Shown piece after piece: positions 16,887-44,079 of a stretch of DNA of 64,000 nt. Source of the stretch: a virus; the IMG/VR virus record IMGVR_UViG_3300031963_000048, positions 1 to 64,000 of that record. One strand, given 5' to 3'. Both the position numbers and the translations under genes were made by a program. Numbering within the stretch: the first letter of the stretch is position 1; each line of letters starts with the position of its first letter. The notes beneath the pieces are model-generated. The model ran no database searches. It was given only the letters and a program-made list of their open reading frames with translations, and was not told the DNA's origin.

Positions 16887-18034
16887 GCAACAGTCAATAT
16901 TTCGGGCAAGAAACTTTTTTCAATGAAAAAATTAATGCATATGCGGGTATATCAGGAGATCTAACTGGCAATGTAATTGGTAATTTAACTGGCGATATTA
17001 CCGGCAATGTAATTGGTAATTTAACTGGCGATATTACCGGCGATATACTTGGCAATGTGACTGGAAATATAACTTCAAGTGGTATTTCTACATTTCAAGA
17101 TATTCGAATTATTGGAAAATATTTTGATGGTAGTAATACTTTTGGATCATCTGGACAAATTTTATCTTCTGATGGAACAAAGACTGCTTGGATTAATGCA
17201 TCAGCCGCAAACGTTGGATCTGCAACTTCTATTGGAATTAATTTAGATTCAACAAATGCTTCGAGATACTTAACTTTTGTTGATGCTACTTCTGGAAATA
17301 ATCTTGTTAAAGTTGATGCAGATCTAACTTATAATCCCAGCACAAATGCACTTACCGCAGGTTCTTTTGTTAAATCTGGAGGAACTTCAAGTCAATTTTT
17401 AAAAGCAGACGGATCAGTTGATTCTACTACATATTCTACACAAACATTTCCATCAGGAACATTAATGTTGTTTCAACAAACAGCAGCACCGACTGGATGG
17501 ACAAAACAAACAACACATAATGATAAAACATTGAGAGTGGTGAGTGGTGCTGCTGGTTCTGGTGGAAGTACAGCATTTACTTCAGTGTTCGCATCAAGAA
17601 CTCCATCAGGGTCTGTGAGTGTTTCTGGTTCTAATAGTGGAGGAAGTATTGCAAACACAACTGTTACTGGTTCTGTTTCTGGATCTAACTCTGGTGGAGG
17701 TGTAAGCAATACTACTCTGTCTACTGCGGAGATGCCATCACATAGTCATGGTACTACTACAGGAACTTTTCTTATTGATAATGGAGGTGGTGGAAGTCAA
17801 GGATTTGCTGGGGGTGGTACTCAAGTTCTTGTTACTCCATCTACTGCTGCTACTGGCGGAAGTGGCGCTCATGGTCACGGATTTACTAATCCATCCTGGT
17901 CTGGTTCCGTTTCAATGAATGCTCACAGTCACACATTTACAAACCCATCATGGAGTGGATCTGCATCATTCTCTGGGGCATCAATGGACTTTGCAGTTCA
18001 ATATGTAGATTTAATTATTGCTTCTAGAAATTGA
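16883..18034 (+). CDS. tail fibre protein with HxH tip
   Basis: 383 aa. The N-terminus has GN(V/L)TGDITG-type short repeats encoded by a DNA tandem repeat. The middle has PSGTLMLFQQTAAPTGWTK, a phage fibre motif, and the C-terminal third is Gly/Ser-rich with MPSHSHG, GAHGHG and NAHSHT. Such HxH pairs bind iron along the T4 gp37 tip and occur in short-tail-fibre collar domains. Probably a receptor-facing fibre. The start overlaps the preceding stop (ATGA). Confidence 0.82.
   Translation: MSNSQYFGQETFFNEKINAYAGISGDLTGNVIGNLTGDITGNVIGNLTGDITGDILGNVTGNITSSGISTFQDIRIIGKYFDGSNTFGSSGQILSSDGTKTAWINASAANVGSATSIGINLDSTNASRYLTFVDATSGNNLVKVDADLTYNPSTNALTAGSFVKSGGTSSQFLKADGSVDSTTYSTQTFPSGTLMLFQQTAAPTGWTKQTTHNDKTLRVVSGAAGSGGSTAFTSVFASRTPSGSVSVSGSNSGGSIANTTVTGSVSGSNSGGGVSNTTLSTAEMPSHSHGTTTGTFLIDNGGGGSQGFAGGGTQVLVTPSTAATGGSGAHGHGFTNPSWSGSVSMNAHSHTFTNPSWSGSASFSGASMDFAVQYVDLIIASRN
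16967..17038 (+). repeat. 36-bp tandem repeat, two exact copies
   Basis: Copies at 16967-17002 and 17003-17038 are identical. They encode GNVIGNLTGDIT twice in the fibre N-terminus, and a degenerate third unit follows. Length could change by slippage without shifting the frame. Confidence 0.9.
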
Positions 18035-19715: not shown

Positions 19716-19732
19716 CTTAAAAGACATAGCAA

Positions 19733-19740
19733 TATAAATA
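19733..19740 (+). promoter_or_regulatory. late promoter TATAAATA inside an inverted repeat
   Basis: TATAAATA lies between AGACATA (19722-19728) and its complement TATGTCT (19763-19769). The second arm covers the ATG of the HNH gene at 19764. Confidence 0.6.
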
Positions 19741-19763
19741 ATAATGAGTTTTCCGTTTAAGTT

Positions 19764-20225
19764 ATGTCTAATCGTAAATATACTGATGAGCAATTTATAG
19801 AGGCAGTCAAAACTTCCACGAGTATTAGACAAGTTTTATCCAAACTTAATTTAAAACAAGCAGGTGGAAACTATGAAGTTGCTCAAAAAAGAATAAAAAC
19901 TCTAAATCTTGATGATTCTCATTTTACTGGGCAAGCACACTTAAGAGGAAAAACACACGATTACACTAAAAAACCTATTGAATATTATTTGACTGAAAAT
20001 TCATATCACCAATCGCATAAATTTAAAAAACGATTAATAGCAGAAGGTCTCAAACAACATAAGTGCGAGTGCTGTGGTATAACGGAGTGGAATGGAAAAC
20101 CAGCACCTATTGAACTTGACCACATAAACGGCAACCATCACGATAATCGTTTAGAAAACCTTCGCATCCTGTGCCCCAACTGTCACGCTCAAACAGACAC
20201 CTACAGGGGTAAGAATAAAAAATAA
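19764..20225 (+). CDS. free-standing HNH homing endonuclease
   Basis: 153 aa. An N-terminal helical part is followed by a zinc-HNH domain: C101-x2-C104, the DH pair at 119-120 (ELDHINGNHHDNR), N128 and C137-x2-C140-H141. Homing enzymes of this type cut phage DNA lacking the gene and spread by repair. It sits in an accessory slot beside tRNAs. Its start codon is inside a short inverted repeat with a late promoter in the loop. Confidence 0.93.
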   Translation: MSNRKYTDEQFIEAVKTSTSIRQVLSKLNLKQAGGNYEVAQKRIKTLNLDDSHFTGQAHLRGKTHDYTKKPIEYYLTENSYHQSHKFKKRLIAEGLKQHKCECCGITEWNGKPAPIELDHINGNHHDNRLENLRILCPNCHAQTDTYRGKNKK

Positions 20226-20228: not shown

Positions 20229-20249
20229 TAAGATATGGGAATTTTTCCT

Positions 20250-20555
20250 ATGTCTTATCGTATCGACACTGCATACTGCTGGTATAACGATGGCAGTATG
20301 ATCGTGAAGATGTATTTTATTAATCACATTCCTTTCACGTTTGACGAACTCCCAGACGGACATTTATACGATCAAGATCTTTGTAGAGCAGCAGATAAGA
20401 ATCGTACATTTGAACCAGAAGACTTATATAGAAGTTCTTTCTATCTTATCGATGAAGAGGTGCATCCTTGCTTCTTTCCAGTTGAGTTAGAAAACCCTGA
20501 AGACCTTCCAGACGACCTTGAATTTGAATATGGTGGGGAAGATTTGACTTCATAA
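20250..20555 (+). CDS. conserved protein of unknown function
   Basis: 101 aa from the ATG at 20250; an in-frame ATG at 20235 is too close to the late promoter to be in its transcript with a leader. The protein has a beta-strand start (YRIDTAYCWYNDGSMIVKMYF) and an acidic C-terminus with repeated Pro-Glu/Asp (ENPEDLPDDLEFEYG). Function unknown. Confidence 0.75.
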   Translation: MSYRIDTAYCWYNDGSMIVKMYFINHIPFTFDELPDGHLYDQDLCRAADKNRTFEPEDLYRSSFYLIDEEVHPCFFPVELENPEDLPDDLEFEYGGEDLTS

Positions 20556-20597
20556 ATAATAATGCTTTTGTTTGTGGTTATTCAAAAGTAAAGAATG

Positions 20598-20617
20598 GGA
20601 GCAGAAATGCTCCTTTT
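20598..20617 (+). terminator. rho-independent terminator
   Basis: Stem GGAGCA (20598-20603), loop GAAA, stem TGCTCC (20608-20613), then TTTT. It would stop upstream transcription before the homing endonuclease. Confidence 0.75.
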
Positions 20618-20621
20618 CTTG

Positions 20622-20629
20622 TATAAATA
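20622..20629 (+). promoter_or_regulatory. late promoter TATAAATA for the GIY-YIG gene
   Basis: Exact TATAAATA directly after the terminator and 23 nt before the ATG at 20653. Confidence 0.7.
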
Positions 20630-20652
20630 TTATTACCACAAACAAAAAGCAG

Positions 20653-21195
20653 ATGGAATACTACACTTACGCTTATTTGCGTGAAGACGGCACACCTTAT
20701 TATATTGGTAAGGGTAAGGCAGGAAGAATTACTAATAATTTACATAGAATTGCTGTTCCTAAAGAAAAAGAAAGAATAATTTATTTAAAGAAAAATCTTA
20801 CCGATGAAGAAGCAAGAAAGCACGAGATTTATATGATTGCTGTCCTTGGTCGAAAAGATTTGGGAACAGGTATTTTGAGAAATATGACTGACGGTGGAGA
20901 AGGATGTGCTGGTCGCCGTTTAAGTGATGAAACTAAAAAGAAGTTAAGTGATAGTCATAAAGGTAAGAAATTTACAGATGAACATAAACGAAAATTAAGT
21001 GAGGCAGCAAAGAAAAAAATATTTACGAAAGAACACAGACACAATATGAGTAAAGGACTATCGGGAGAAAATAATCCATCTTTTGGAAAAAAATGGTGGA
21101 ATAACGGTATAGAAAATAAGTTAAGTAAAGAGCGTCCTGGCGATGATTATATTTTGGGATTTCTACACAAGTATTGGATGAGCAAATATAAATAA
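20653..21195 (+). CDS. GIY-YIG homing endonuclease with NUMOD3 motifs
   Basis: 180 aa from the ATG at 20653; a longer frame reaching to 20572 would run through the terminator and is rejected. The nuclease domain has YAYLREDGTPYYIGKGKAGR (residues 6-25), the GIY-YIG core. The C-terminal part has repeated DNA-binding NUMOD3 units (LSDETKKKLSDSHKGKKF and LSEAAKKKIF), as in the T4 Seg enzymes. It lies just before the largest fibre gene and probably moves as a selfish element. Confidence 0.93.
   Translation: MEYYTYAYLREDGTPYYIGKGKAGRITNNLHRIAVPKEKERIIYLKKNLTDEEARKHEIYMIAVLGRKDLGTGILRNMTDGGEGCAGRRLSDETKKKLSDSHKGKKFTDEHKRKLSEAAKKKIFTKEHRHNMSKGLSGENNPSFGKKWWNNGIENKLSKERPGDDYILGFLHKYWMSKYK
21187..21194 (+). 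promoter_or_regulatory. late promoter TATAAATA for the large fibre gene
   Basis: Exact TATAAATA at the very end of the GIY-YIG gene, 30 nt before the TTG start at 21225. Confidence 0.65.
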
Positions 21196-42391: not shown

Positions 42392-43160
42392 ATATCAACC
42401 AAAACCACAAACACCAGAGCAAGTTGCCGATGGATTGCGTGATGCCTTTAGACAAGCAATCAAAGATGGTGTGATGGATGCTACTCCTTATCTTAAACAA
42501 ATGACTTACAAATCTGATATTGAAAAGACAGAAGCAGAAATCAAAGTGCTTCAAAAGAAACTGGAACTTCTCAAAGAGATTGAGACACATAAATCTCAAC
42601 CAAGAATGGAAGCAGAAAAATCTGGTGAAGTTCATATTGTCTCTTATAATAAGAAAACTTATTATCGTATTGAATATACTGATGAGTATGGGTATGTTGT
42701 GTGGTGGAGAAGAGAAAAAGAAGAGGATTTCTGGGATAATGCTTCAAGACTTGTGATGGTGACTGATAAAGAAACTGAACGACTTCTTGAAGGACTTTGG
42801 TTTAATGATGTGAAGAAGGAAAAGTATGATGATGTGGTTGATGAACACAAATCACCAGTAGAAGAAGCATACAAAGATTGGGGGGGGCAATATCCTGAAT
42901 TAGAAACTGATTCCGAGTATGATGATATGAGGTGGAAGGGGTTTCAAGCAGGTTTTCAGGCAGCATATGAAGAGAAGGTAAGAGAAGATGATTATTATAA
43001 ACCAAAACCTACTACTCTTTTTGCTAATCTTGACCCCTATTCTAATGTTGATAGGGAGCATATTTGTAGTATTGTTGCCGAATGGTTGCCGAAAGAACAC
43101 GATACTAACTCTTATAAATGGAACGAGTGTCTGAAACTTATGCGGGAGAAATTAAGGTAA
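42384..43160 (+). CDS. unknown protein with coiled coil
   Basis: 258 aa from the ATG at 42384. A coiled coil (IEKTEAEIKVLQKKLELLKE) lies near residues 48-67; the rest includes a beta segment (YRIEYTDEYGYVVWWRREKE) and a C-terminal helix with MRWKGFQAGFQAAYEEKV. No known domain recognised. Last gene before the homing endonuclease slot. Confidence 0.75.
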   Translation: MTEYQPKPQTPEQVADGLRDAFRQAIKDGVMDATPYLKQMTYKSDIEKTEAEIKVLQKKLELLKEIETHKSQPRMEAEKSGEVHIVSYNKKTYYRIEYTDEYGYVVWWRREKEEDFWDNASRLVMVTDKETERLLEGLWFNDVKKEKYDDVVDEHKSPVEEAYKDWGGQYPELETDSEYDDMRWKGFQAGFQAAYEEKVREDDYYKPKPTTLFANLDPYSNVDREHICSIVAEWLPKEHDTNSYKWNECLKLMREKLR

Positions 43161-43204
43161 TAAATAAAAATGTCTGTTGAAACCGCAATCTCTACGGACG
43201 GATT

Positions 43205-43225
43205 AGGTGCTTTCGGGCACCTTTT
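43205..43225 (+). terminator. rho-independent terminator
   Basis: AGGTGC (43205-43210), loop TTTCGG, GCACCT (43217-43222), then TTT. Confidence 0.75.
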
Positions 43226-43229
43226 CTAT

Positions 43230-43237
43230 TATAAATA
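43230..43237 (+). promoter_or_regulatory. late promoter TATAAATA
   Basis: Exact TATAAATA, 25 nt before the ATG of the putative homing endonuclease. A late promoter here is out of character for the surrounding early region. Confidence 0.7.
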
Positions 43238-43262
43238 CTAATGCGGTTTCAATAAGATTACG

Positions 43263-44021
43263 ATGACTTCACAAAGTCCAAGAATATACTTATACAAAAT
43301 TACTTTTGAAGAAGTTCCATATTATTATTATGGGGTTCATAAGGAAAAATATTACAACGAAGAATATTGGGGAACTCCTATAACTCATAAATGGTGTTGG
43401 AAATTTTATACTCCAAAGAAACAAATACTTGAAGTTTTTGATTATACTGACGAAAGTTGGTTAGAAGCACAAGAAGTTGAAAAAAGAATAATTAGACCTT
43501 TTCTTAACGATAATTGGTGTTTGAATGAAAATTGTAATGGTATTTTATCACTAAAAATACTCAAAGCAGCAGGAAAAAAAGCAGCAGAAACTCATAAAAA
43601 TAATAATACAGGACTTTACAATGTTTCTTTGGAAAAAAGAATTGAAAATGGTAAAAAGGCATATGAACTTGGAGTGGGAGTTCATTCAAGAACAAAAGAA
43701 AAAATGAGTGAAGATGGTAGAAAAGGTGCTAAAACACAACAGGAACTTTGTATAGGAATACACGGAAAAACAAAAGAACAAATTCGTGAAGATGGTAGAA
43801 AAGGTGGAAATAAAGTAAAAGAACTCGGATTAGGAATACACGGATTTACTAAACAACAGAGAATTGAAAATGCTAGAAATGGTGGAAAAGTTAGTGGAAA
43901 AAATGTAGGAAATCAAAAATGGATGTGTATTGAAACTGGATTTATTTCTAATCCAGGAGGACTTACGAGATATCAAAAATCAAAAAATATAGACACTTCT
44001 AAAAGAGTAAGAGTATCATAA
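43263..44021 (+). CDS. putative GIY-YIG-like homing endonuclease
   Basis: 252 aa. The N-terminus IYLYKITFEEVPYYYYGVHK (residues 8-27) resembles a diverged GIY-YIG core. The C-terminal half has repeated DNA-binding-like units: LGVGVHSRTKEKMSEDGRKG, GIHGKTKEQIREDGRKGG and LGIHGFTKQQRIENARNGG. Such repeats occur in T4-like homing enzymes. It is inserted between two early units with its own late promoter. The catalytic Arg/Glu are not pinned down. Confidence 0.75.
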   Translation: MTSQSPRIYLYKITFEEVPYYYYGVHKEKYYNEEYWGTPITHKWCWKFYTPKKQILEVFDYTDESWLEAQEVEKRIIRPFLNDNWCLNENCNGILSLKILKAAGKKAAETHKNNNTGLYNVSLEKRIENGKKAYELGVGVHSRTKEKMSEDGRKGAKTQQELCIGIHGKTKEQIREDGRKGGNKVKELGLGIHGFTKQQRIENARNGGKVSGKNVGNQKWMCIETGFISNPGGLTRYQKSKNIDTSKRVRVS

Positions 44022-44027
44022 GGACAC

Positions 44028-44079
44028 TTTGCAAACTGGAACAGGGGCACTTGAAATCTGGTGCCCTTTGTTGTATAAT
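44028..44079 (+). promoter_or_regulatory. TGGCACA-class early promoter (variant TGGAACA)
   Basis: TTTGCAAACTGGAACA (TGGAACA 44037) and TATAAT (44074), 37 bp apart, with GGGCAC/GTGCCC hairpin between. Serves the long unit 44102-49190. Confidence 0.76.

Follow-up and report, generated by a model that had tools for sequence, protein, structure and literature searches.

A candidate family of same-strand antisense small RNAs in the leaders of mobile homing endonuclease cassettes of T4-like phages

The genes for the homing endonucleases I-TevI, I-TevII and I-TevIII of phage T4, T4 segB and mobE of phage Aeh1 all have their translation start in a stem of read-through RNA, and in leaders of the I-TevI type a late promoter is placed so that the late RNA lacks the 5′ arm of that stem (PMC2988022, PMC3014915). 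Both features recur in the leader of a GIY-YIG nuclease gene in IMG/VR virus record IMGVR_UViG_3300031963_000048, a 94,806-base record of which positions 1-64000 were analyzed (hereafter the window) and whose closest named relative is Synechococcus phage S-SRM01 (Kyanoviridae). The locus differs from the T4 arrangement in that a second late promoter and a terminator make the 5′ arm a discrete predicted RNA with a hairpin of its own, and in that the leader is portable: several nuclease families share it, at more than 120 sites. With a probability of roughly 0.6, we favour the view that the leader belongs to a mobile homing endonuclease cassette of T4-like phages related to cyanophages and that, judging from its sequence, it would combine an antisense small RNA acting in trans with sequestration of the start in cis.

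A second point of comparison is the RNA-OUT/RNA-IN pair of IS10, in which a short structured RNA can base-pair with the 5′-terminal and initiation regions of the mRNA encoding the mobile element's enzyme (PMC5006887). The predicted cassette RNA resembles RNA-OUT, by sequence only, in its promoter, hairpin, terminator and 16 nucleotides (nt) of complementarity, and by analogy would likewise block ribosome binding, more strongly as copy number rises (PMC5006887). RNA-OUT is made from the opposite strand, whereas the cassette RNA would come from the same strand, upstream, by way of an inverted repeat; it may therefore work like RNA-OUT without being a member. The c4 RNA of bacteriophages P1 and P7 likewise shares its coding strand with its target, which lies immediately downstream, and has short stretches of complementarity to it; unlike the cassette RNA, with its separate late promoter and terminator, it is processed from a longer transcript. 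As an antisense RNA, c4 is a precedent (Citron and Schuster, as cited in PMC8546580). A permissive Rfam search of the cassettes gave no c4 match, and in the window only tRNAs reached the Rfam gathering score. CfrI of cyanophage S-PM2 is another cyanophage regulatory RNA linked to a homing endonuclease gene (PMC2984593, PMC12197685), but at about 225 nt it is a true antisense RNA, to psbA and the homing endonuclease gene, and is not built from an inverted repeat. Neither Rfam nor the literature searched (weak evidence, with most subscription journals outside it) contained this combination, its modular use by several nuclease families, or a same-strand antisense RNA for homing endonucleases.

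In the scheme that we propose, two late promoters are stacked. If the upstream promoter, P1, fires, transcription would begin on the first arm and give an RNA of some 55 nt, which would form a small hairpin and a terminator and then be released as a presumably stable molecule. From the promoter in the loop, P2, the nuclease mRNA would start on the second arm; almost its whole 5′ untranslated region (5′-UTR) would thereby be the complement of the first 16 nt of the small RNA. Acting in trans, the small RNA would base-pair with fresh transcripts of the nuclease gene to within a few nt of the AUG and block their translation, and this pairing may expose the mRNA to RNase III. Repression would grow with the number of phage genome copies, as in IS10 RNA-OUT, and on RNA reading through the terminator from upstream genes the same pairing in cis would hide the start, as in T4 I-TevI. 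The net outcome would be that, at any insertion site, little nuclease is made, and for a short time late in infection. The features on which the scheme is built are listed in Table 1.

Table 1. Features of the two cassettes in the window (positions are those of the window)
Feature	Position	Strand	Remarks
P1, upstream late-promoter motif CATAAATA	20551-20558	+	ATAAATA 20552-20558, TAAATA 20553-20558; predicted RNA start 20564
Predicted late small RNA, ~55 nt	20564-20620	+	5′ arm with hairpin A, plus terminator; predicted from sequence
5′ arm	20564-20579	+	First arm of the original prediction, extended; complement of the nuclease mRNA 5′-UTR
Intrinsic terminator in loop	20597-20620	+	GGGAGCAgaaaTGCTCC-TTTTCTT; GGGAGCA-gaaa-TGCTCC stem-loop
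P2, loop late promoter TATAAATA	20622-20629	+	Predicted mRNA start 20635; TAAATA-N-T-N-N-T-R context as at P1
3′ arm, beginning of late nuclease mRNA 5′-UTR	20635-20650	+	UTR 20635-20652
GIY-YIG/NUMOD3 homing endonuclease, 180 amino acids	20653-21195	+	Pfam NUMOD3 2.4e-13
P3, TATAAATA over nuclease stop codon	21187-21194	+	Positioned to serve the displaced tail-fibre gene
Second cassette, P1 (AATAAATA)	43159-43166	+	Predicted RNA start 43172
Second cassette, predicted small RNA	43172-43228	+	Hairpin A GTCTGT/ACGGAC and terminator; folding z -4.77
Second cassette, P2 TATAAATA (43230-43237) and 5′-UTR/3′ arm (43243-43262)	43230-43262	+	
Second cassette, nuclease-like open reading frame MTSQSPRIYLYK..., 252 amino acids	43263-44021	+	

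The original prediction, made from the sequence of this stretch, had described a perfect 13-base-pair (bp) inverted repeat over the start of the nuclease gene, with a terminator and a late promoter in its loop. The repeat, formed by TTTTGTTTGTGGT (20566-20578) and ACCACAAACAAAA (20635-20647), and the terminator are both confirmed, the former as the sole inverted repeat of at least 13 bp with a loop of at most 100 nt in the window; the loop promoter is supported, and the ATG lies, as had been stated, exactly 5 nt past the second arm. With one bulged base the helix lengthens to GCTTTTGTTTGTGGT (20564-20578) paired with ACCACAAACAAAAAGC (20635-20650). RNA spanning 20564-20660 folds at -35.3 kcal/mol, against a mean of -15.2 for shuffled sequences (z-score -6.8, 0/200), in support of the earlier claim that long read-through RNA folds over the start region. 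The 5′ segment also forms a local hairpin, here called hairpin A (20564-20570 with 20583-20589); neither this hairpin nor P1, immediately before the first arm, was remarked on in the original prediction. The 57 nt of the predicted small RNA fold with a z-score of -4.65. Next to the start the leader reads AAGCAG-ATG, and there was no clear Shine-Dalgarno sequence when the consensus was sought inside the stem.

Relatives of the leader were sought in three ways: by the nuclease protein, by the conserved leader and start pattern, and by promoter layout only, a search that asked for two promoters and their initiator but demanded neither arms nor gene. GIY-YIG and neighbouring genes accounted for 103 distinct cassettes, and the layout search detected 85, two sets that may partly overlap; all searches together gave 174 distinct contexts in 123 site clusters, the insertion sites lying in IMG/VR contigs. 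Complementary arms were present in 85 of the 96 distinct matches to the layout alone, while the remaining 11 look like chance. The genes downstream of the leader belong to the GIY-YIG, NUMOD3, HNH_3, recombination endonuclease VII and DUF7487 families and, weakly, to HNH and PD-(D/E)XK; since several families stand behind one leader, the leader is a module and not part of one family. The cultured phage S-SRM01, whose laboratory host is KCZYC6, carries five copies, near 17955, 48435, 51249, 55961 and 192423, and B23 one; the S-SRM01 genes behind the copies include an annotated HNH restriction endonuclease and a nuclease associated modular domain 3 protein. One S-SRM01 cassette with a gene so annotated (MW015081, 17955-18703) lies directly upstream of the gene for the single-stranded DNA-binding protein (T4 gene 32 homologue), recalling T4 segG, whose nuclease gene contains gene 32 promoters (PMC2988022).

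Counts of the form n/45 refer to 45 representative cassettes. ATAAATA lies inside the loop in all 45 and a terminator is present in 45/45 (median RNA length 54 nt), so that the terminator is no mere addition to a T4-type leader, as had originally been supposed. So constant a terminator would also suit a transcriptional insulator, in which P1 and the terminator act as a road-block to strong late or upstream transcription and the pairing of the arms serves mainly RNA stability or processing (by RNase III, for example). The cassette does often lie directly behind a phage gene, the TAA of P1's TAAATA being the stop codon of the upstream gene in 33 of 101 contexts; in the window, the TAA at 20553-20555 ends the upstream open reading frame (ORF; 20235-20555). 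We consider an insulator improbable, since a terminator alone needs neither P1, nor hairpin A, nor 16 nt of complementarity to the 5′-UTR.

The reported late promoter of cyanomyoviruses is NATAAATA (PMC2984593). P1 and P2 have the common form TAAATA-N-T-N-N-T-purine; at each promoter, 43/45 cassettes have T at position 5 and 44/45 a purine at position 6. If the purine is taken as the start, RNA from P1 would begin exactly where the 5′ arm does (20564), and RNA from P2 where the 3′ arm does (20635). Positions +1 to +7 of the predicted mRNA are paired in 45/45 cassettes, dropping to 18/45 at -2, and the paired region thus begins no more than 1 nt from the predicted mRNA start; the helix ends 1-8 nt before the AUG, mostly 1-5 and most often 1. 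On the earlier argument, absence of the first arm is what lets the late RNA be translated. The predicted P2 start does lie past the first arm, but the conclusion need not hold, since P1 would yield that arm as a separate terminated RNA able to pair in trans. The + strand of the whole window has 15 copies of ATAAATA and the - strand none, which fits a one-directional late module.

P1 travels with the cassette at most sites. Among detections based on the arms and P2, in which P1 was not demanded, 91/95 show TAAATA just before the 5′ arm; of the four without it, one duplicates a normal cassette with a shift. Cassette-free homologues were comparable at 45 sites, and at 31 of these none has TAAATA near the junction, meaning that P1 arrived there with the cassette. 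The idea that P1 is in every case a displaced host promoter holds at the tail-fibre site, where the cassette of the window sits, but is rejected as a general rule by the cassette-free homologues elsewhere. An element bounded by TAAATA on both sides was also rejected, the motif lying near the 3′ end in only 18 of 95 genes.

The long helix is conserved as a pairing, and not as a sequence. RNAalifold run on a raw MAFFT alignment detected zero pairs, because divergent arms of unequal length were misaligned; we replaced this alignment by anchored blocks (ten anchored pairs, 60 distinct arm pairs) with shuffled and slid registers as controls. In these blocks 97.0% of cells were paired (vs. 53.4% when shuffled and 27-40% when slid by 1-3 columns), with compensatory change in 10/10 pairs and a covariation score of 1.10 vs. 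0.24; among the representatives, pairs 1-7 were kept in 45/45, with varied Watson-Crick pairs. Since the pairing register had been picked for maximal pairing, exchange controls and permutations with a re-optimised register were added. When arms were exchanged between cassettes, 6.83 of 10 pairs formed in the best register, as against 9.76, and the duplex weakened from -20.4 to -8.8 kcal/mol. The computed net gain of the small RNA:mRNA complex was -12.7 kcal/mol for cognate pairs, with none of the 45 above -8.9, and -2.8 for exchanged ones. A layout common to more than 120 sites, with arms that are diverse yet complementary, means that the inverted repeat is not due to chance; the compensatory changes also lend further support to the fold over the start. 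They bear equally on a DNA-level explanation, in which the inverted repeat would be the nuclease's own binding site or the end of a mobile element (an operator or homing-site mimic, as in I-TevI autorepression). A protein-binding site would conserve sequence rather than complementarity, so that arms that vary freely yet stay complementary count against it, as does the same leader before unrelated nuclease families; we regard this explanation as very improbable.

Hairpin A pairs the first six bases of the 5′ arm with the bases just behind it. It was paired in 87.8% of cells (vs. 72.9%), with compensatory change in 6/6 pairs and a score of 0.57 vs. 0.30 (0/500); the signal persisted when the register was re-optimised for each permutation (z 7.2) and when one sequence per hexamer was kept (0/5000). 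To judge from these substitutions, hairpin A and the long helix, which use the same bases and are mutually exclusive, are both under selection. Since hairpin A competes with the long helix, it makes best sense for an RNA existing without the second arm. It would be the structure of the free RNA if the small RNA is made; if the leader acts in cis only, it would weaken the very hairpin that matters.

The latter possibility, T4-type control in cis only, is the I-TevI and Seg logic invoked by the original prediction: read-through RNA is terminated or folded over the start, and P2 RNA, which has no first arm, is translated. P1 would then be only a promoter of the upstream context, and its short RNA waste. 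Control of this kind has been established in I-TevI, with reports of it in I-TevII, I-TevIII, segB and Aeh1 mobE (PMC2988022, PMC3014915); read-through RNA folds into a long hairpin of high stability, and the resemblance to I-TevI and SegB control stands. What it does not predict is a covarying hairpin A in competition with the long helix, a P1 carried to sites without a native TAAATA, a common initiator at P1 and P2, or pairing that begins at the mRNA start. We therefore think that action in cis alone is rather unlikely.

Several points do weigh against the small RNA. The P1 of the window coincides with a native promoter, as control in cis only would have it: 49 of 51 cassette-free homologues of this site carry TAAATA, the native late promoter of the tail-fibre gene. 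The whole geometry would also suit action in cis alone, and P1 and P2 are both late promoters, which fixes no ratio of small RNA to mRNA. Identical arms occur on two cassettes within single genomes (G034 and G029), and specificity between cassettes is therefore not strictly kept; the idea of incompatibility, with different arms obligatory within one genome, was rejected on the same observation, although arms mostly differ. A GIY-YIG cassette at L021 (2430-2520) has inverted arms and P2 but no TAAATA P1; it may be transcribed from a different promoter, or its action may be confined to cis. Finally, the start sites, the small RNA and the repression are predictions from sequence. Taking both sides together, we consider it probable that, in T4-like phages, the amount of free-standing homing endonuclease is set by a family of same-strand, upstream antisense small RNAs. 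The leader would be swapped as a unit among unrelated nuclease families, its small RNA/mRNA pairs drifting into dozens of types yet staying matched.

The nuclease site is filled here and empty in S-SRM01 and about 70 IMG/VR loci, in which the tail-fibre gene comes immediately after the upstream gene; as filled and empty sites both exist, the site is mobile. The 3′ end of the nuclease gene, TATAAATAA (21187-21195), re-creates a late promoter for the displaced tail-fibre gene, and a similar re-creation has been described for T4 segG and others (PMC2988022). Pfam matched the 180-residue protein to NUMOD3 only and not to PF01541, which matched the protein of another cassette, and a sequence search of the PDB gave zero relatives. 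The GIY...YIG signature (YTY, Y-I-G), R25, E58 and N77 are nevertheless invariant or nearly so in 33 sequences, and UvrC GIY-YIG domains (probability 0.85-0.97, E 0.16-0.33) rank among the closest PDB structures to an AlphaFold model (mean predicted local distance difference test score 78). Signature and model thus make the GIY-YIG identity proposed originally well supported, although this protein itself has no significant database score for GIY-YIG. The HNH ORF next door (19764-20225) has its ATG within a 9-bp stem (19717-19770), with TATAAATA (19733-19740) in the loop and no terminator; this leader resembles the plain I-TevI-type arrangement, and its folding is weakly better than that of shuffled sequences (z -1.1).

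The window holds a second cassette of the same design (43161-44021; Table 1), on which the original prediction did not remark. A sigma-70-like promoter, TTGAAA-17-TATAAT, lies 3′ of its nuclease gene (44051-44079), and TATAAT-like sequences are also found 3′ of many other cassettes; cassettes seem to rebuild, at their 3′ ends, the kind of promoter that each displaced gene requires. Elsewhere, an apparent nuclease-cassette remnant, an ORF end only, lies near position 3303 of L348. L107, at the tail-fibre site and another site, also looks like a remnant: TAAATACTAGTGCCTTATT is joined straight to ORF sequence, which would fit loss of the leader and of the beginning of the gene by deletion. A strong hairpin precedes a different gene (ATGGCAAATGAAATTAGAAAT...) in L150 (3672-3780); ATAAATA lies in the loop, and there is neither P1 nor terminator.

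According to a 2010 review of post-transcriptional control in T4, no small trans-acting regulatory RNA from this phage had been functionally characterised (PMC3014915). The cassettes provide a concrete, testable class of small RNA candidates in T4-like cyanobacterial phages, with S-SRM01 as a cultured isolate, and offer dozens of naturally matched small RNA:mRNA pairs for studies of specificity. They bear on the question of how a free-standing selfish nuclease inserts behind almost any phage gene without being over-expressed.
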